Source: a virus. From it: a stretch of DNA of 21,170 nt. Below the pieces are notes generated by a model that saw only the letters and a list, made by a program, of their open reading frames with translations, was not told the DNA's origin and made no database searches. Made by a program: the position numbers and the translations under genes. Of this stretch, positions 3,212 to 15,966 are shown one piece after another. Numbering within the stretch: position 1 is the stretch's first letter; each line of letters opens with the position of its first letter. The stretch lies in IMG/VR virus record IMGVR_UViG_3300010151_000238, positions 1-21,170 of that record. One strand, written 5' to 3'.

Positions 3212-4294
3212 ATGTCGTCATTGTTCGAAAAGGCTATAGCTGACGCCAAAGAGTTAAAGGAAACCGCCCTTAAAAATGCGGAGCATTTGATAATCGAAAA
3301 GTATTCGTCTGAACTAAAAGAGACCATTGAAAACCTTTTGGAACAACCGGAAGAGGAAGATCTTGATATAACAATGGACGACGAAGCACTCGCAGGCGAT
3401 GAAGACCTTGGTGCAATGGGCGAAGAAGAGGAAGAAATGGGACTCGACATGGGTCCAGAGGTTGGTCCCGGCGAAGAATCCTTAATGGCTCAAGTTCCCG
3501 ACGCCGCAGTTGCTGTTCTTTCTGGTGAACTTGATGACGCCGAAGAAATAGAAATAGACTTTGACGAACTTCGTGCTGCTATGGATGCGGAGATGGACCC
3601 CTCCACCCCAGAAGATATTATTGATCGAGAAGAAGAAATTATTGAACCTATGGCTGGCGGCGAAGAAGGAACAGAAGATGTAGAAGCCATAATGGAAGAA
3701 CTTACAGAAGAACAACTCGCCACTTTACTTGAAGAGGTTGATGTTGATATCGCGTCCATCTATCCTTCAAACGGCTGGGCTGGCTCTACTCAAGGGGATA
3801 AAGCAGAAAACGTACAACTCGTTGCTCTGGGTCAAGCGCTTGAAGAAGAATTGGCACGCGAACGCGAAAAGAACGAAAAGCTCACGGATCAAAATGTTGA
3901 ATTGACCGAGAGCTTAAAGAAATCAAAAAAGAATCTTGTCAAAGCCAAAAAAGTTCTAACAGAGATGCAGAACAGGGTGGCACAGGCAAACCTCCGTAAC
4001 GCTAAGTTGTTTTATGCAACAAAAGTGTTGGAGACACAAGAACTTAATACCCGACAAAAGAATAAAATTGTCGAGTCCTTGGCGAAAGCCAAAACAACTG
4101 AGGAAGCAAAACTGGTTTATGAGACTCTAAAAGAATCAGTGGGTAGCACCAAAGAAACTGCACCAAAATCATTGGTTGAGGCAGTAAACAGAACACGTTC
4201 CCTCATCCTCTCTTCTACACCAAGAGAAGAGAAACAAAAAGTTTCTCCGATGTATGATCATTGGAAGAAGCTTGCAGGAATTAATAAACCATAG
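3212..4294 (+). CDS. 22: Prohead core scaffolding protein, T4 gp22-like
   Basis: A 360-residue, very acidic protein. It has an N-terminal helix (SSLFEKAIADAKELKE), a long Glu/Asp-rich disordered middle at about residues 45-180, and a coiled coil at about 205-270. The C-terminal domain has NAKLFYATKVLETQELNTRQ followed by KNKIVESLAKAKTTEEAKLVYETL, typical of T4-type scaffolds. The short tail PMYDHWKKLAGINKP is also usual. The protein forms the temporary core around which the capsid shell assembles and is then digested by the prohead protease. The start is supported by AAGGAG just upstream. The stop TAG overlaps the strong ribosome binding site of the capsid gene, so the two should be translated in tandem. 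The assignment rests on composition, C-terminal motifs and position. Confidence 0.9.
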   Translation: MSSLFEKAIADAKELKETALKNAEHLIIEKYSSELKETIENLLEQPEEEDLDITMDDEALAGDEDLGAMGEEEEEMGLDMGPEVGPGEESLMAQVPDAAVAVLSGELDDAEEIEIDFDELRAAMDAEMDPSTPEDIIDREEEIIEPMAGGEEGTEDVEAIMEELTEEQLATLLEEVDVDIASIYPSNGWAGSTQGDKAENVQLVALGQALEEELAREREKNEKLTDQNVELTESLKKSKKNLVKAKKVLTEMQNRVAQANLRNAKLFYATKVLETQELNTRQKNKIVESLAKAKTTEEAKLVYETLKESVGSTKETAPKSLVEAVNRTRSLILSSTPREEKQKVSPMYDHWKKLAGINKP

Positions 4295-8715: not shown

Positions 8716-11556
8716 ATGTCAGTAAAAAAGTTCAAATTTGTATCTCCCGGCGTTTTTATCAATGAGATTGATAACTCCGAACTACCAACTGTTCCTGCAC
8801 CTGAAGGACCAACCATTATTGGTCGTTCGTTGAGAGGACCGGCGATGAGACCCGTGGAGGTCGAATCGATGGAAGAGTTCGTTACAGTCTTTGGTCCCCC
8901 CATCAATGGCTCAGAAAACGTGGATGCTTTCAGACATCCTGAGTTCGGTGCGCCAACCTATGGTGGCTATGCGGCTGAAGCGTGGTTGAGAAATAGTTCC
9001 ACAATAAACTTTGTTCGCTTGTTGGGTCGCCAAGATGAGAATTATACCGTTGGCAGCGGCGAAGCCGGATGGAAACTTGCTGATTTTTCTGCCACAGGCG
9101 GCGGCGCATACGGTTTGTATGTTTTTAACTCTGGATCTGGCGGCACGCACGAAGGTACGCTGGGCGCAATTTTTTACTGTGATGATGATACTTATGTTGA
9201 GCTTAGTGGCACGGTTGAAGACGCCCACGGCGTCGGTGCCGATAGCGCTTTGACCGGTGCGTGTGCCCTTGTAAAGACTACTAACAATGAAGCCACTGTG
9301 CGTATTGTTGGCGGTCTTGGTACAATTGAGACTGCGTGTGGCTTTGACCGTACTTCTAGAAGGTATATCCGGTCAACTTTTAATACCAATCCCACTAAAA
9401 CCACTACGGGCATTACGCCCACTGCTGATCGACAAGATTATTTTTTAGGTGAGACATTCGACCGCGCCATTGAATCAGTTATAACGGGTACAAGCAACAT
9501 CGCCTTCGCGATGGTTGTTCCCCTTGATAAAGGCAGCACCGGAGACGGCGCAAATTTCGGTAAGGGATTTGTGGATTGTCAAACGGGCTGGGTTATTTCT
9601 CAAGATAAACTTGGCTCGACCGGCAGTTTCAATCCCACCCTAGCCGCGAGCGTAACCAAGCTATTTAAATTTCATGGCTTACAAACAGGACAGTATGACC
9701 AAGGAGCAGTGAAGATTTCCATTGAAAACATCATGCCCGCAAAGAATCCGGCTGGCTTTGGCACATTCAATGTTGTGGTTCGCAGGTTGCGTGATAACGA
9801 TGCAAAGGTTCAAGAAGTTGAAAGGTATAACTCTCTTACACTTAATCCTAACTCTCCCAACTATGTGGCTACCCAGATCGGCGACCGATACATTTCGTGG
9901 GACAATGATTCCAGAGTATACAAAGAATACGGACAATATGAAAATCGTTCACGTTATTTCCGTGTCGAAATGGCACAAGTGGTAGATGACGGTGCGCTGG
10001 ACAATATCTTGTTGCCCTATGGTTATTACGGACCTCAGAAATACAGAAACATTACTTTGGGTTCAGGTTCGACTCTCGGTGCGGCTGATTTTGCTGTCGG
10101 CACCGCATCGTTGCCCGATGGCGCTAACCCGAACTTGGGCACCGGTAGCGGTGTTGATTCGAGACCATATGGCGGCGTCGGCGATTGGTTGCTTCCCTAC
10201 GGAGCTACCTGTTCCATTTCCATGCCATCAGTCCCCTTACGAACATCAACCGCAACGGGTGATGTTTCCAGCCCACAGGCAGCTTATTTTGGCATTACGA
10301 CTACGCGGGGTTCAGGCTCTTCAACTTATGATGACTCTATTCCAGCCTTCTTGCGTACTAAGCCTGTTAACATTGATAGTTTTGCAGAAGGAACGCTCAC
10401 GCAGTTTTCACATGTGTTTACCCTTGATGATCTTGTTGTCTCAAATGGAAATATGACCTATTCAAGTGGGTCGAGGGTCGGCGGCACTTCACTTACTGCG
10501 AAGAGCGGCAGTTACTCTATCCTTACTGGTACGCTGTCTCCAAAGGGATTCACGATGCCACTCTTTGGTGGGTTTGATGGTCTGGATATCACAGAAAAAG
10601 ATCCCTTTGCCAATAGAAACACCACTGGTGAAACAGAGCGAAGCAGCTATGCTTATCACTCATTAACAGTGGCAATGGACTCTATTAGAGATCGTGAAGT
10701 CGTACTGACCAATGTCATTACAGCCCCGGCTATTACAACTGCTGGTCTAACCAATAAAATGTTAGATATAGCAGAGGATCGAGGAGACTGCTTGGCAGTC
10801 ATTGATTTAGCTGGCGGGTTCCAGCCTTCTTCGGAAAACGCATCTGCTCTTTCGGCAAGAATCGGTTCAGTAACAAACACGGTTAATAACTTAAATGCAC
10901 GCAATCTTAACACAAGTTTTGGATGTGCATTTTATCCTTGGGTTAGCATTAGCGATTCTTTTGGAGACGCTAATCTGTGGGTTCCCCCTTCAGTTGTAGC
11001 CCTTGGTGCATTCTCTTACACCGATAAGAATGCCGATCCTTGGTTCGCGCCTGCTGGTTTTACTCGCGGCGGCTTATCAAAGGGTGCCGGCGGCGTTCGC
11101 GTGGTAGGAGTTACGGATCGTTTGCGTTCGAAAGATCGAGATGATTTGTACGAGACTAACATTAATCCCATTGGAACTTTCCCGAATGAGGGGATTGTGA
11201 TTCTGGGGCAGAAAACCCTTCAAACCACACGTTCAGCACTGGATCGAATTAATGTTCGTCGGTTGCTGATCTACACCAAGAGACAAATCACAGCGGTGGC
11301 AAACAATCTATTGTTTGAGCAAAATGTCCCAGAGACTTGGAAGAAATTTACTGGTTTAGCCGAACCAATCCTCCGAGATATCCAAGCTGGATTTGGTTTA
11401 GAAGATTACAGGCTGATTTTAGATGAAACTACAACCACACCAGAGCTTCGTGATAGAAATATTATGTATGCCAAGATTTTCTTAAAACCGGCTAAATCAA
11501 TTGAGTTCATTGCTTTGGACTTTATCATTACTAACTCGGCAGCGACATTTGAGTAA
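8716..11556 (+). CDS. 18: Contractile tail sheath protein, T4 gp18-like
   Basis: A 946-residue tail sheath subunit. The N-terminus has the signature FVSPGVFINEIDNSELPTV and GPTIIGRSLRGPAMRPVEV (about residues 8-60). The C-terminal domain has RLRSKDRDDLYETNINPIGT, ILGQKTLQTTRSALDRINVR and a helical end with ILRDIQAGFGLEDYRLILDE. These ends form the conserved sheath core, whose arms interlock in extended and contracted states. T4 gp18 is 659 residues, so about 290 extra residues lie mostly in a Gly/Ser/Thr-rich middle (about 120-620), probably as surface domains. Polymerised around the tube, it contracts to drive DNA injection. The ribosome binding site is AGGAG before ATG 8716. The tube gene follows 18 bases after the stop. 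Confidence 0.94.
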   Translation: MSVKKFKFVSPGVFINEIDNSELPTVPAPEGPTIIGRSLRGPAMRPVEVESMEEFVTVFGPPINGSENVDAFRHPEFGAPTYGGYAAEAWLRNSSTINFVRLLGRQDENYTVGSGEAGWKLADFSATGGGAYGLYVFNSGSGGTHEGTLGAIFYCDDDTYVELSGTVEDAHGVGADSALTGACALVKTTNNEATVRIVGGLGTIETACGFDRTSRRYIRSTFNTNPTKTTTGITPTADRQDYFLGETFDRAIESVITGTSNIAFAMVVPLDKGSTGDGANFGKGFVDCQTGWVISQDKLGSTGSFNPTLAASVTKLFKFHGLQTGQYDQGAVKISIENIMPAKNPAGFGTFNVVVRRLRDNDAKVQEVERYNSLTLNPNSPNYVATQIGDRYISWDNDSRVYKEYGQYENRSRYFRVEMAQVVDDGALDNILLPYGYYGPQKYRNITLGSGSTLGAADFAVGTASLPDGANPNLGTGSGVDSRPYGGVGDWLLPYGATCSISMPSVPLRTSTATGDVSSPQAAYFGITTTRGSGSSTYDDSIPAFLRTKPVNIDSFAEGTLTQFSHVFTLDDLVVSNGNMTYSSGSRVGGTSLTAKSGSYSILTGTLSPKGFTMPLFGGFDGLDITEKDPFANRNTTGETERSSYAYHSLTVAMDSIRDREVVLTNVITAPAITTAGLTNKMLDIAEDRGDCLAVIDLAGGFQPSSENASALSARIGSVTNTVNNLNARNLNTSFGCAFYPWVSISDSFGDANLWVPPSVVALGAFSYTDKNADPWFAPAGFTRGGLSKGAGGVRVVGVTDRLRSKDRDDLYETNINPIGTFPNEGIVILGQKTLQTTRSALDRINVRRLLIYTKRQITAVANNLLFEQNVPETWKKFTGLAEPILRDIQAGFGLEDYRLILDETTTTPELRDRNIMYAKIFLKPAKSIEFIALDFIITNSAATFE

Positions 11557-11574: not shown

Positions 11575-12087
11575 ATGTCAGAATTTTGGACGTCACCCCA
11601 ATTAGAACCAAAGAAAAGTTATCAGTATACTGTTGCGTTTGAAAACATCGGCAGTTTTTTGATCAAGGGTGCCACTTTACCAGCGGTTGAGATAGGAACA
11701 ATCGAAGCAGATTATACTCAGTATAAGTTTTATTATCCCGGTAAAATGTCATGGTCACCTGTTGAGTTTACCATTTATGACGTGGCTGGACCACAGTCGG
11801 TGGCAAAGAAACTCCAAAGTATTTTAGGCAAGGTTGGTGTTAAGATGCCTGTTAACTCCAACGATCAGGCTACAATGTCTAAAATGGGCTTCGCCGACAA
11901 GTTGGGAGATATAAAGATTACTCAACTTGGTACAGGCGGCGCAAGCGATCCGCAGGGTACTTGGACATTAGTCAATCCCATTATCACCAGTGTAAACTAT
12001 GGCACGCAGGGCTATTCAGAAGAAAGCCTTATCGAAGTTACAGTTGGAGTTCAATATGATTGGGCTAATTATGAAGCTGGTGCATAA
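11575..12087 (+). CDS. 19: Tail tube protein, T4 gp19-like
   Basis: A 170-residue tail tube subunit (T4 gp19 is 163). The sequence shows YQYTVAFENIGSFLIKGATL, a Pro and acidic turn, FYYPGKMSWSPVEFTIYDV, and a C-terminal GTQGYSEESLIEVTVGVQYD, consistent with the beta-barrel tube fold of the phage T4 gp19 family. Hexameric rings stack to form the channel inside the sheath. Its place directly after the sheath gene with AAGGAGA upstream is the standard sheath-tube order. Nothing odd is seen in length or composition. Confidence 0.92.
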   Translation: MSEFWTSPQLEPKKSYQYTVAFENIGSFLIKGATLPAVEIGTIEADYTQYKFYYPGKMSWSPVEFTIYDVAGPQSVAKKLQSILGKVGVKMPVNSNDQATMSKMGFADKLGDIKITQLGTGGASDPQGTWTLVNPIITSVNYGTQGYSEESLIEVTVGVQYDWANYEAGA

Positions 12088-12106: not shown

Positions 12107-12958
12107 ATGAGAAATGAAGAAAGGCTCGGTACAAGCCAACAAGAAACAAATCGTTCTACCAATTCTACCACTCCCCCCCAACAAATACAAAATTTATTAA
12201 ATTTTCCGACCAGCACGGAATTTGTAGATCTTCCCTCTCGCGGGGAATTTTATGCTGAAGATCATCCTTTACACGGGCAAAAACAGCTTGAAATGAAGGT
12301 GATGACGACAAAAGAAGAAGACATTCTTCTTAATGCCAATTATATTAGAAATGGTGTCGTGATTGACAAGCTCTTAAGAAGCTTGATGGTTGACAAATCC
12401 ATTAAGTTGGACGACCTTCTCATTGGGGATAAAAATGCCCTAGTGTTTGCAGCAAGAGCGTCCGGTTTGGGGCATCTTTATACTGCTAAGGTGAAGTGTT
12501 CAAAATGCGACGAATCTACAGAGGTGGAACATGATTTAAGTGATTTGGCTACCAAAGACGCAAACACCGTTGATTGGATATCTCCAACAGAATCTGGCAC
12601 TTTTGTAGTAGATTTACCCAAATCTAAGTTGAAGGTGGAGTTTAAGCTGTTAACAGGAAGAGAGGAAAAAGATATAGACATAACGGTGGCTAAACGCAAG
12701 AAACATCGATTGCCCGTCAATCATCTTTTGATTCGGCTACAGAAAATAATTCTGTCCATCAATGGAGTTTCTGATTCCTTTCAAATTTCTTCGTGTTTAG
12801 AAGCAATGCCCATTATGGATTCAAGGCGAATACGCTTGGCGTATGATCATGTACTTCCAGATATAGACACATCATTTGATTTTATGTGTCCATTCTGTGA
12901 TACAGAGCAGGAGGTAGGACTGCCCCTGACGGCAGACTTTTTTTGGGCTGACTCCTGA
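12107..12958 (+). CDS. 26: T4 gp26-like baseplate hub/tail assembly chaperone protein
   Basis: A 283-residue protein with a Gln/Thr-rich N-terminus. A conserved block follows: FVDLPSRGEFYAEDHPLHG (39-57), MTTKEEDILLNANYI, then LLRSLMVDKSIKLDDLLIGD (89-108). Two Cys pairs (CSKC at 131-134 and CPFC at 261-264) could bind a metal ion. The region TGREEKDI to LQKIILSINGVSDSF matches T4 gp26/baseplate-type proteins. The end LPLTADFFW is the usual family terminus. Members lie between the tube and tape measure genes, where tail assembly chaperones also sit. The last codons run through a T7 tract, after which another frame stays open for 67 codons, so a longer 346-residue form is likely. The ribosome binding site is AGAGG before ATG 12107. 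Confidence 0.85.
   Translation: MRNEERLGTSQQETNRSTNSTTPPQQIQNLLNFPTSTEFVDLPSRGEFYAEDHPLHGQKQLEMKVMTTKEEDILLNANYIRNGVVIDKLLRSLMVDKSIKLDDLLIGDKNALVFAARASGLGHLYTAKVKCSKCDESTEVEHDLSDLATKDANTVDWISPTESGTFVVDLPKSKLKVEFKLLTGREEKDIDITVAKRKKHRLPVNHLLIRLQKIILSINGVSDSFQISSCLEAMPIMDSRRIRLAYDHVLPDIDTSFDFMCPFCDTEQEVGLPLTADFFWADS
12938..12944 (+). promoter_or_regulatory. Probable recoding (frameshift) site, T7 run
   Basis: Seven T residues are read as TTT TTT TGG in the gp26-like frame, 12 bases before its stop. Dropping one T (+1) or re-reading two (-2) puts ribosomes on GGG CTG ACT, opening the downstream frame to 13148. Phe-tRNA can re-pair at every step of the run, and polymerase slippage is also possible. 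The site lies where lambda-type G/GT frameshifts occur, between tube and tape measure genes. A one-base homopolymer error would give the same picture. Confidence 0.6.
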
Positions 12959-13148
12959 GTATGGCAAGCAAGCCTATGAGATGCTTTTTTATCTCGTCTA
13001 TTATGGAGGAATAAGCTTCACAGAATCTTATAATTTTCCAATCGGTCTTAGGCGTTATATGTTTGACAGGCTTGTCAAAGAAATCAAAGAAAAAAACAAA
13101 GCCATAGAAAAAGCCAACAAACCGAAAGGTTCGCCTCGTTTTAGATGA
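12945..13148 (+). CDS. gp51-like frame, read as C-terminal extension of gp26-like protein
   Basis: This frame stays open from 12930 to the TGA at 13146-13148, and its reading begins with GLTPEYGKQAYEM after the T7 run. It encodes a hydrophobic-aromatic stretch (MLFYLVYYGGISFTESYNFP) followed by IGLRRYMFDRLVKEIKEKNK and a basic tail. I recognise the GG-x-SFTE-x-Y-x-x-P-x-x-LRR pattern from short proteins that follow gp26-like genes in many myoviruses, comparable in position to T4 gp51. The only upstream ATG in this frame (12981) has no ribosome binding site, so fusion by frameshift (279 + 67 = 346 residues) is preferred over a separate 55-residue product. It probably assists hub or tape measure assembly. 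Its stop lies inside the terminator hairpin. Confidence 0.7.
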   Translation, partial: GLTPEYGKQAYEMLFYLVYYGGISFTESYNFPIGLRRYMFDRLVKEIKEKNKAIEKANKPKGSPRFR

Positions 13149-13163
13149 GGGGAACTTTTTTTT
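13128..13163 (+). terminator. Intrinsic terminator after the gp26/gp51-like frames
   Basis: The arms 13128-13137 and 13147-13156 pair as a 10-position stem with one G-G mismatch and one G-U pair, around a nine-base loop. The 3' arm runs into eight T residues (13156-13163). The upstream stop codon (13146-13148) lies at the loop edge. The next ACTATTTAT copy starts four bases later. Confidence 0.8.
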
Positions 13164-13518: not shown

Positions 13519-15966
13519 ATGGTAGCAAAAAAACCACTATCGCCACTAGACCAAATTAAAGCCAAAGAAAAGGCGCTTAAAGTAAGCCAAAAACAGCAAG
13601 CGCTGTCCCTTGATATGCTGAAAGAAGAGTGGAGCATCAGAGAAGAGCTTGACAAAAAGCAAATTTCCAAAGCCGAGAGAGAGAAAGAAACACTAGAAAC
13701 TGAAACTTCCTTTCTCAAAGAGCAATTCGATCTTAGAAAAGAACTTTATAAATTGGCTCTTGAAACCAATGAAGGAGAAGAAGAAGCCAAAAAAAATCTC
13801 ATTGAAGCCAACATAGCTCTTAAAGCAGGCAACGACCTTTTAACAGAAAGAAACGAAAAACTTCAAGAGAGCCGCGACGCCTCCGAAGCCATTGGCGGGA
13901 TGATGGAGCTTGCCGCTGGTCGTCTCGGAGTGTCTGTTAAACAGTCAGAAATGTGGTCCAAATCCTTTTCCAAAATAGGAAAAAGCTTGGACTCGATGGT
14001 TGCCGATCTGATAAAGGGCAACCGCTCCATGAAGGACATGAAGGCATCCATGAAAGAGATGGGTGCGTCCGCTGCTAAATCGATCGCCTCGTTCTGGACC
14101 ATCTCTGATCTCCTTGGTAATATGGTAGCCAGCACTCTTGAAGTATCCAAGAATTTAAGAGCGGTCAGGGTAAGCCTTGTCCAATCTGGCATGTCAACCA
14201 AGAAAGCCGCGAAAATACAAAAGGGCTATCTTGATCAGTTGTATAAAATAGGCATTTCAGCCGGGGAATATGCTGGGCACGTCGCTGAGATGTATAACAA
14301 TAACGCCAAACTGGGCGAAACCATGAAGAGTAACGCACCTCTTTTTGCCAAACTGGGCAAACTTGGCTTCAGTACCGGCGATTCAATGAAGGTCTTAAAC
14401 AGCCGGATGTTTGAATTCGGCGAAACAAGTAGCGCTGCTTTGTTGGATACGCTCGGAGACTTAGCTGCGATCGATGAAAATCTCGACCAACTGCGCGGTA
14501 CGTCGGTAAAGACTTTTGCAGCCAATATGCAGCGCCTGAATCAATATGGTCCGCGAAGTATCCAAGTCTTTTCTGAGTTGGCGGTTGTTTCTAAAAAAAC
14601 TGGGATGGAGATGAGCAAGATTCTCGATATAACATCCAAGTTTGACACTTTCGAAGGCGCAGCCAACATGGCTCAAAAGTTGAATGTAGCTTTGGGCACG
14701 TCAATCAGTTCGTTAGAGTTGGTTGGTAAAACCGATGTTGAACGCGCACAGATAATCAGTCAACGATTACAAGATGCGGGTGTAGATTTGGAGAACATTT
14801 CTCCTCAACTTGCTAGAGTTATTTCACAAACTGGCTTGGAGGTAGGTTCTTTGAGACGGTTGGCTGGAGCCGATCTTTCCAATGTCAGCGCTGAAGCGGT
14901 AAAGACCTCTGAAGATAATACTAAGCTGCTCAAGGATGTTGCCAAGGACGCTGCTGCCGCGATTGATCCTCTGGATAAAGCTGCGAATGCGGTGACACTA
15001 GCGTTTGGCTCGCTTGCCAAGAAGCTTGATCCCCAGATCATGAAAATAGCTGATGCCATTGCTGAGATGGACCCCGATGTCATCTTGGCGGTGGCGTTCG
15101 CATTTGCTACTATTGGTACAGTGCTGGGTGCGCTCATGGCTTCAAGAACTTTCAAGATGATCAAGGGGGCGTTTGGTGTTGGCAAAACTGTCGCTGCGGC
15201 TGGCAAAGGTGCCAAACTCTTCGGAAAAGGTGGTGATGTCGTCAAGAGCGTATCAACCGGCAAGCGCCTTTACGGCACCGCCGCCGCAGGAGCTTTAAAA
15301 AAAGGTACTGCGGAAATAGTTGCAAAGGGCGCTACCAAAGGCGTCGGCAAAAAGGTAGCTGCAACTGTGGCTGGCGGCGCAGCGCTAGGCGTTGGCGGGG
15401 CACTTACCAAGATGGGACCAAAAGCCGCAGGCGTTGCCGTCGCGAAAAAAGTTCCTGTCCTTGGGCTTATTCTGGGTGCTGGGTTTGCCATTCACCGTGC
15501 TATGGATGGTGATTACGTTGGCGCGGCTGGCGAGCTTGTTGCCGGTGGGCTTTCCACTATTCCCGGCATCGGCACTGCCGCCTCGATTGCCATTGAAGGT
15601 GCGTTGATGGGCAGAGATGTGGGATATGCGACCGGCGCTATTGAGGGCAGCAAAACCAGCGCCGCCAATCAACTACGAGACGCCGCCGTCTGGGGCGCGA
15701 CAGGAGCCGGCGCATTCATGGGTCCAATGGGTTCCCTCGCCGCCGCCGGTCTTGCTGCCAAATATGTTCCCGGCGAAGACACATCTGCGATGCAAGGTGC
15801 CGTTCAGGGAACCGCACAGGCTCAAGCTGCTGCCCGTCAGGCATCGGGCACTCAGACAACAAACGCCAATATTAACTTAACGGTGGACAAGCGCCAGTTG
15901 GCGAAGGTCACCGTGCCGATTGTTAATGGCGCTGTGCAAAGCCCCTTAATGCCGCTCGGCGCATAA
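13519..15966 (+). CDS. Tail tape measure protein
   Basis: An 815-residue tape measure protein. Residues 1-120 are a charged helical coiled coil (KAKEKALKVSQKQQALSLDM, then EREKETLETETSFLKEQFDL). A central helical domain of about 180-500 contains long Ala/Leu/Lys repeats with little Cys or Trp. A hydrophobic span lies at about 517-540 (DVILAVAFAFATIGTVLGAL). A Gly/Ala-rich hydrophobic region follows at about 610-755 (VPVLGLILGAGFAI, TIPGIGTAASIAIEGALMG), typical of tape measures that insert into the host inner membrane. The end INLTVDKRQLAKVTVPIVNG resembles tape measure C-termini. If the usual scaling of about 0.15 nm per residue holds, the tail would be roughly 120 nm. No lytic transglycosylase or peptidase motif was recognised. 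Confidence 0.9.
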   Translation: MVAKKPLSPLDQIKAKEKALKVSQKQQALSLDMLKEEWSIREELDKKQISKAEREKETLETETSFLKEQFDLRKELYKLALETNEGEEEAKKNLIEANIALKAGNDLLTERNEKLQESRDASEAIGGMMELAAGRLGVSVKQSEMWSKSFSKIGKSLDSMVADLIKGNRSMKDMKASMKEMGASAAKSIASFWTISDLLGNMVASTLEVSKNLRAVRVSLVQSGMSTKKAAKIQKGYLDQLYKIGISAGEYAGHVAEMYNNNAKLGETMKSNAPLFAKLGKLGFSTGDSMKVLNSRMFEFGETSSAALLDTLGDLAAIDENLDQLRGTSVKTFAANMQRLNQYGPRSIQVFSELAVVSKKTGMEMSKILDITSKFDTFEGAANMAQKLNVALGTSISSLELVGKTDVERAQIISQRLQDAGVDLENISPQLARVISQTGLEVGSLRRLAGADLSNVSAEAVKTSEDNTKLLKDVAKDAAAAIDPLDKAANAVTLAFGSLAKKLDPQIMKIADAIAEMDPDVILAVAFAFATIGTVLGALMASRTFKMIKGAFGVGKTVAAAGKGAKLFGKGGDVVKSVSTGKRLYGTAAAGALKKGTAEIVAKGATKGVGKKVAATVAGGAALGVGGALTKMGPKAAGVAVAKKVPVLGLILGAGFAIHRAMDGDYVGAAGELVAGGLSTIPGIGTAASIAIEGALMGRDVGYATGAIEGSKTSAANQLRDAAVWGATGAGAFMGPMGSLAAAGLAAKYVPGEDTSAMQGAVQGTAQAQAAARQASGTQTTNANINLTVDKRQLAKVTVPIVNGAVQSPLMPLGA

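Follow-up and report, generated by a model that had tools for sequence, protein, structure and literature searches.

The locus between the tail tube gene and the probable tape measure gene of the window (the whole stretch of 21,170 nucleotides of viral DNA that was analysed) very probably encodes a pair of tail assembly chaperones, of which the long form is predicted to arise by programmed +1 ribosomal frameshifting. Frameshifting of tail chaperones and the identity of the T4 chaperones are already known, while the +1 variant together with its conserved signal, and the contrast to a sister branch with a -1 shift, appear to be new in the searchable literature. A programmed frameshift had been proposed in the original prediction and is supported by the conserved junction, the slip site and the coding selection in relatives.

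Genomic organization of the locus

The gene order is sheath, tube, gp26-like locus and tape measure (Table 1). The chaperone-like position between tube and tape measure assumed in the original prediction is borne out, for the tube by its PHROG 4542 match and for the tape measure by position, size and the annotation of the counterpart of the 13519-15966 ORF in Flavobacterium phage immuto as tail tape measure; a direct match of this ORF to a tape-measure family was not found in the PHROG scan. The 0-frame protein is matched by PF12322 T4_baseplate (40.1 bits versus a cut-off of 24.5, E 4.4e-10) and by PHROG 150, named 'baseplate hub' (E=1.9e-13).

The gp26-like frame ends with ...CTG ACG GCA GAC TTT TTT TGG GCT GAC TCC TGA (stop codon at 12956-12958), and the +1-frame translation of 67 codons from 12945 onwards reads FGLTPEYGKQAYEMLFYLVYYGG...SPRFR. 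The end DFFWADS-stop, the T7 run and the length of the open +1 frame described in the original prediction were all found in the sequence, and the predicted length of 346 residues for the fusion was reproduced by translation with one base skipped. As had also been claimed, the +1 segment lacks an independent start in the window: neither ATG nor GTG nor TTG is present in the +1 frame between the TGA at 12927-12929 and the T run or the conserved GLTPEY.

The terminator-like hairpin with T8 that directly follows the +1 frame is situated between the chaperone and tape measure genes and also occurs in the diverged relative L241. A second terminator-like hairpin is located at 12920-12935, in front of the T7 run.

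Table 1. Positions of features at the predicted chaperone locus and of neighbouring genes in the window.
Feature	Position	Strand	Remarks
Sheath gene	8716-11556		5' of tube
Tail tube gene	11575..12087	+	PHROG 4542 tail tube, E=4.5e-17
gp26-like gene (TAC-N)	12107..12958	+	283 aa; C-terminus ...ADFFWADS*
Predicted frameshift product (TAC-NC)	12107..13148	+	346 aa, translated skipping one base
AGGAGG, SD-like	12909..12914	+	23 nt 5' of first T; candidate stimulator
TGA closing the +1 frame upstream	12927..12929	+	
T7 slippery site TTT TTT T(GG)	12938..12944	+	P-site UUU, A-site UGG
+1-frame gp51-like C-terminal segment	12945..13148	+	67 codons + stop (13146-13148)
Terminator-like hairpin, then T8	13134..13163	+	directly after +1 frame
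Probable tape measure gene	13519..15966	+	815-aa ORF; from position, length and immuto annotation

Conservation among relatives

A scan of IMG/VR and GTDB contigs yielded 131 usable loci, of which 111 are non-redundant at 90% identity and 109 possess enough flanking sequence. The out-of-frame arrangement, which the original prediction had proposed to check in relatives, is conserved: after the gp26 stop, 50 or more codons can be read in the +1 frame without a stop in 105 of the 109 loci (dinucleotide shuffles: 1.8%), and the -1 frame is open to this extent in four loci of the same survey. Comparison of close pairs gave a pN/pS of 0.18 for the +1 frame with 0 stops in 7,344 codon comparisons, versus pN/pS values of 2.0 and 1.2 and hundreds of stops for the other two frames. 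Judged from these substitution patterns, purifying selection is acting on the +1 frame only. The T7 run is present in L002, another IMG/VR contig which aligns without gaps and with a single mismatch along 6,127 nt (99.98% identity), as well as in L241, whose +1 tail is 76% identical. Six Ts in one continuous gene, which the original prediction had named, for reads, as a finding that would speak against it, were not seen in the relatives surveyed.

Out-of-frame junctions also occur in isolates, with TTT TTT TGG in Microcystis phage Mel-JY01 and Rhodothermus phage RM378, TTT CTT TGG in Flavobacterium phage immuto, TTC TTT CGT in Streptococcus phage GXN1, TTT TTT CAC in Bacillus phage SP-15 and TTT TTT AGT in Listeria phage LIS04. 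Isolate annotations either end at the gp26 stop or contain a hypothetical ORF that is shorter or has a separate start; in case of Mel-JY01, the second ORF is annotated as a separate gene with a TTG start. The motifs TTTTTTTGGCCT and TTTTTTCGTCC may serve to search for and annotate the chaperone form, which none of the examined public annotations of isolates contains.

Several loci deviate from the common arrangement. L105 and L106 fall just below the 50-codon limit, yet gp51-like sequence is present in their +1 frame. In L053 (around 3709-3756) the site is lost (TTC TTC TGG) and the gp51-like segment is in the -1 frame; A AAT TTC could act as a -1 heptamer there, which makes a switch of shift direction possible. 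The gp51-like segment of L006 (LR756511.1, 3769-3926, from a 595-kb uncultured phage) is in the -1 frame as well and starts at an ATG of its own, which overlaps the gp26 stop (TAATG). The lineage of L111, L114, L116 and L120 carries TTA/CTA TTY AAT CCC AGT at the junction, where the +1 shift appears to have moved to CCC_A.

Slip site and direction of the predicted shift

TTT TTT TGG is found in 68 of the 109 non-redundant relatives, and the commonest full site is TTT TTT TGG CCT. Dual coding accounts for the CCT following TGG, as the T of this CCT is also the second position of a Leu codon in the +1 frame. The P-site Phe codon is TTT in 99 out of 102 cases, whereas TTT makes up 77% of the Phe codons elsewhere (p=2e-8); for a conserved Pro five codons upstream of the site, all four codons are used equally. 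UGG or CGN is conserved in the A-site. A second branch carries TT(T/C) TTT CGN, at which UUU would slip to UUC, and a few relatives carry TTT CTT TGG (CUU_U). Altogether, +1 re-pairing of either Phe or CUU to UUU is possible in 99 of 105 relatives. The base preceding TTTTTT is T in only 2 of 88 sites, although 25-38% would be expected from the background (p about 4e-9); the -1 heptamer U UUU UUN thus seems to be avoided.

The original prediction had left the shift as +1/-2. A -2 shift at T7, as in phage Mu, would lead into the identical frame and add one residue (ADFFFGLT), and in 91 of 105 relatives TTT TTT T allows re-pairing of the P-site tRNA after a backward step of two bases. Nevertheless, eight loci of the TTC TTT CGN/CAT type permit re-pairing of the Phe tRNA at +1 while excluding it at -2, five further loci likewise lack Phe re-pairing at -2 (13 of 105 in all), and the frame is kept in every case; moreover, the avoided U UUU UUN is favourable to backward slippage. 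We therefore consider a -2 shift very unlikely. The +1 part of the original alternative is favoured over both -2 shifting and transcriptional slippage, because the sites TTC TTT CGT and TTT CTT TGG fit +1 only.

Transcriptional slippage at the U run, by which mRNAs with six (or nine) Us and one continuous frame would be produced, is slightly less likely still. It would be in line with T7 in 71 and T8 in 5 of the 105 relatives. However, the junction is unchanged in the 13 relatives with T6 only and in the 16 without any T run longer than three (TTC TTT CGT etc.), and slippage of the polymerase alone would conserve neither the UGG/CGN context of the A-site nor the avoidance of a preceding T.

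Candidate stimulatory signals and translation initiation

Within 42 nt 5' of the site, a Shine-Dalgarno (SD)-like motif is present in 53 of 105 relatives, versus 21.0 ± 3.5 by synonymous resampling. Most of these motifs are located 23-31 nt upstream of the site, and no enrichment was found elsewhere in the gene. Statistically, the SD-like element thus seems to be kept beyond amino-acid need and represents a candidate stimulator. Stimulatory SD sequences are spaced about 3 nt from the prfB site and about 10 nt from -1 sites; a spacing of 23-31 nt is outside the known stimulatory spacings and, to our knowledge, fits no known mechanism. On folding, the RNA 3' of the site showed only weak structure in the window (z between -0.6 and -1.2), and over the family as a whole such structure exceeded expectation only slightly; an Rfam search gave no match.

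A function of the SD-like element as initiation site was also considered and was rejected, as the element is not linked to +1-frame starts: a +1-frame ATG occurs in 3 of the 53 loci with the element versus 7 of the 52 loci without it. This bears on the possibility that the +1 ORF is a separate gene, translated from an internal start or by termination-reinitiation, which we regard as improbable to the same degree as transcriptional slippage. An ATG, GTG or TTG precedes the site in the +1 frame in 49 of 109 loci, the outlier L006 has its ATG at TAATG, and Mel-JY01 is annotated in this way. On the other hand, such a start is absent from 60 of the 109 loci, including the window, the upstream +1 stop can be as close as three codons to the slip site, and the conserved sequence starts at the slip site itself. 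Relatives with a clear independent start had been named in the original prediction as a refuting outcome; most relatives have none, and the outlier L006 has its own.

A sequencing or assembly error or a pseudogene, with six Ts forming a plain fused gene, is the least likely explanation: homopolymer runs are indeed error-prone, but T7 is repeated in the second contig (L002) and in the diverged relative (L241), as a check of the T count in related genomes had been meant to clarify, and the out-of-frame junction recurs in more than 100 diverged loci including the isolates immuto, SP-15, LIS04, RM378, GXN1 and Mel-JY01.

Relation to T4 gp51 and structure models

On its own, the 67-aa segment retrieved little from Pfam, PHROG and tblastn, and profile-profile comparison was needed; PHROG scans of 46 tails gave only two weak matches, both to family 634. 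In profile-profile comparison the +1 tails match the gp51-like -1-frame tails of T4-like cyanophages (95.4%, E 1.7e-8), and these cyanophage tails in turn match the C-terminus of T4 gp51 (95.4%, E 1.6e-8). The direct comparison of the +1 tail with T4 gp51 is weak (E 0.008, probability 4.7%). The C-terminal segment is thus likely homologous to gp51, with the link running through the cyanophage tails. T4 gp51 is covered over its full length by the profile of the fusion family (96.8%, E 3.8e-10), and it matches PHROG 150 plus 634 itself. From these matches, T4 gp51 would be equivalent to the protein made by frameshifting and T4 gp26 to the protein made without it.

The AF2 model of gp26 reached a pLDDT of 89.8. 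Among 350,542 PDB chains, Foldseek ranked the HK97 tail assembly chaperone 2ob9 first for this model, at a non-significant level (probability 0.51, E 0.93). The AF2 model of the fusion has a poor middle part (pLDDT 64), which is probably due to a mixture of partial sequences in the alignment. No relative was identified when PDB sequences were searched with a profile.

Proposed mechanism

We infer the slip mechanism, the ratio of the two products and the chaperone function, the last by homology and gene position. Most ribosomes would read the gp26-like frame to its own stop and release the short form (TAC-N). In a fraction of ribosomes, with UUU in the P-site and UGG in the A-site, the P-site tRNA would slip from UUU to UUU, one U would be skipped, and the long form composed of the gp26-like and gp51-type parts (TAC-NC) would result. 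If lambda G/GT is taken as the model, the tape measure protein may be coated by many copies of the short form, and tail tube subunits may be recruited by a few copies of the long form. If the shift is +1, the trans-frame peptide should be ADFFGLTPEYGK, and ADFFFGLTPEYGK in case of a -2 shift. Furthermore, under +1 shifting the long product should depend on TTTTTTTGG and should be lost in the synonymous version TTCTTCTGG.

Comparison with known systems

Frameshifting of lambda-type tail chaperones is classic. Like gpG/gpGT of lambda and the counterparts in P2, Mu and HK97, the locus of the window is located between tube and tape measure and combines a short form with a frameshift-extended form whose extension has no start of its own. 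It differs in direction, which is -1 in lambda, -2 in Mu and predicted to be +1 at UUU_UGG / UUU_CGN in the branch of the window, and in the protein family, which is PF12322/PHROG 150 and not gpG. According to a 2016 review, frameshifting of tail chaperones is conserved widely among phages with long tails 'except T4' (PMC5009743).

Regarding the +1 direction, the CTT TGG of a few relatives resembles the CUU_U site of bacterial prfB, where a stop codon is in the A-site and the SD is 3 nt away. The +1 shifts of prfB, Listeria phage Tsh and the SPP1 tail gene (PMC3498833) concern a release factor or structural proteins and not a chaperone. The site of influenza A PA-X is UCC_UUU_CGU (PMC3498833); the CGN branch likewise contains UUU_CGU with a P-site slip from UUU to UUC, although protein and host domain are unrelated and only the slip sites are compared. 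For the tail chaperone counterpart of the haloarchaeal myovirus HSTV-2, a +1 shift was described as very likely (PMC5009743), and we place this case beside the window by its description only. With the family surveyed here, a large number of natural bacterial +1 sites of the types UUU_UGG and UUU_CGU would become available, and a large family of T4-related contractile-tailed phages apparently makes its chaperone in two versions by a +1 skip at a T run.

T4 gp26/gp51 (Straboviridae) share the gp26-like N-terminal part, and gp51 aligns across the whole fusion, but in T4 two separate genes without a shift are present. That T4 encodes 26 and 51 separately, as stated in the original prediction, holds, and the two genes are even divergently transcribed. 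Tail assembly chaperones of T4-like phages were identified by Vladimirov, Gautam & Davidson in 2022, as cited in two later publications (PMC12846349, PMC10274946). In the summary of this work given in PMC10274946, gp51 is the counterpart of the frameshift product and gp26 that of the unshifted product in T4, and, to judge from its title, the 2022 work puts forward for T4-like phages a mechanism different from frameshifting (PMID 34826709). The link between the T4 and lambda systems drawn in the original prediction thus holds, but it is not new. Poly-T signals in the branch of T4-like cyanophages are attributed to Vladimirov et al. in PMC12846349, and for this reason the -1 signal of the cyanophages may already be known. 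From the present survey, relatives of T4 gp26/gp51 seem to retain widely a recoded single locus that is read forward.

A further comparison is given by the T4-like cyanophages and T4-like phages of Vibrio and Stenotrophomonas, which have the same gene pair, the same Phe-Phe position and homologous C-terminal tails. In this set (L145, L153-L156, L158-L239; 77 non-redundant loci), T TTT TTC is found at the same Phe-Phe in 77 of 77 loci, the gp51-like sequence is in the -1 frame, which is open for a median of 62 codons (+1 frame: median 8), and an SD-like element is present in 59 of 77, mostly 10-11 nt upstream. An SD-like element at 10-11 nt together with a heptamer is the textbook layout of -1 shifting. 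Several isolates of this type (S-CAM8, DSL-LC03) are without an annotated gp51. L144 (Synechococcus phage S-SCSM1) has T TTT TTC as well, but its -1 frame is closed and the gp51-like sequence, which has a separate ATG, lies in the +1 frame, due to either a lineage change or an indel.

Cyanophage-type loci thus combine a predicted -1 shift at U UUU UUC with an SD-like element at about 10-11 nt, whereas the branch of the window combines a predicted +1 shift with a base other than T before the run and an SD-like element at 23-31 nt. On balance it seems probable that homologous T4-type chaperone genes switched their shift direction at one Phe-Phe pair, with -1 in the cyanophage type, +1 here and separate genes in T4, and that the direction is set by the nucleotide preceding the run together with the distance of the SD-like element. 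If so, these loci represent a natural experiment in frameshift direction, and the two sister families, +1 versus -1, form a pair in which the determinants of shift direction can be tested.
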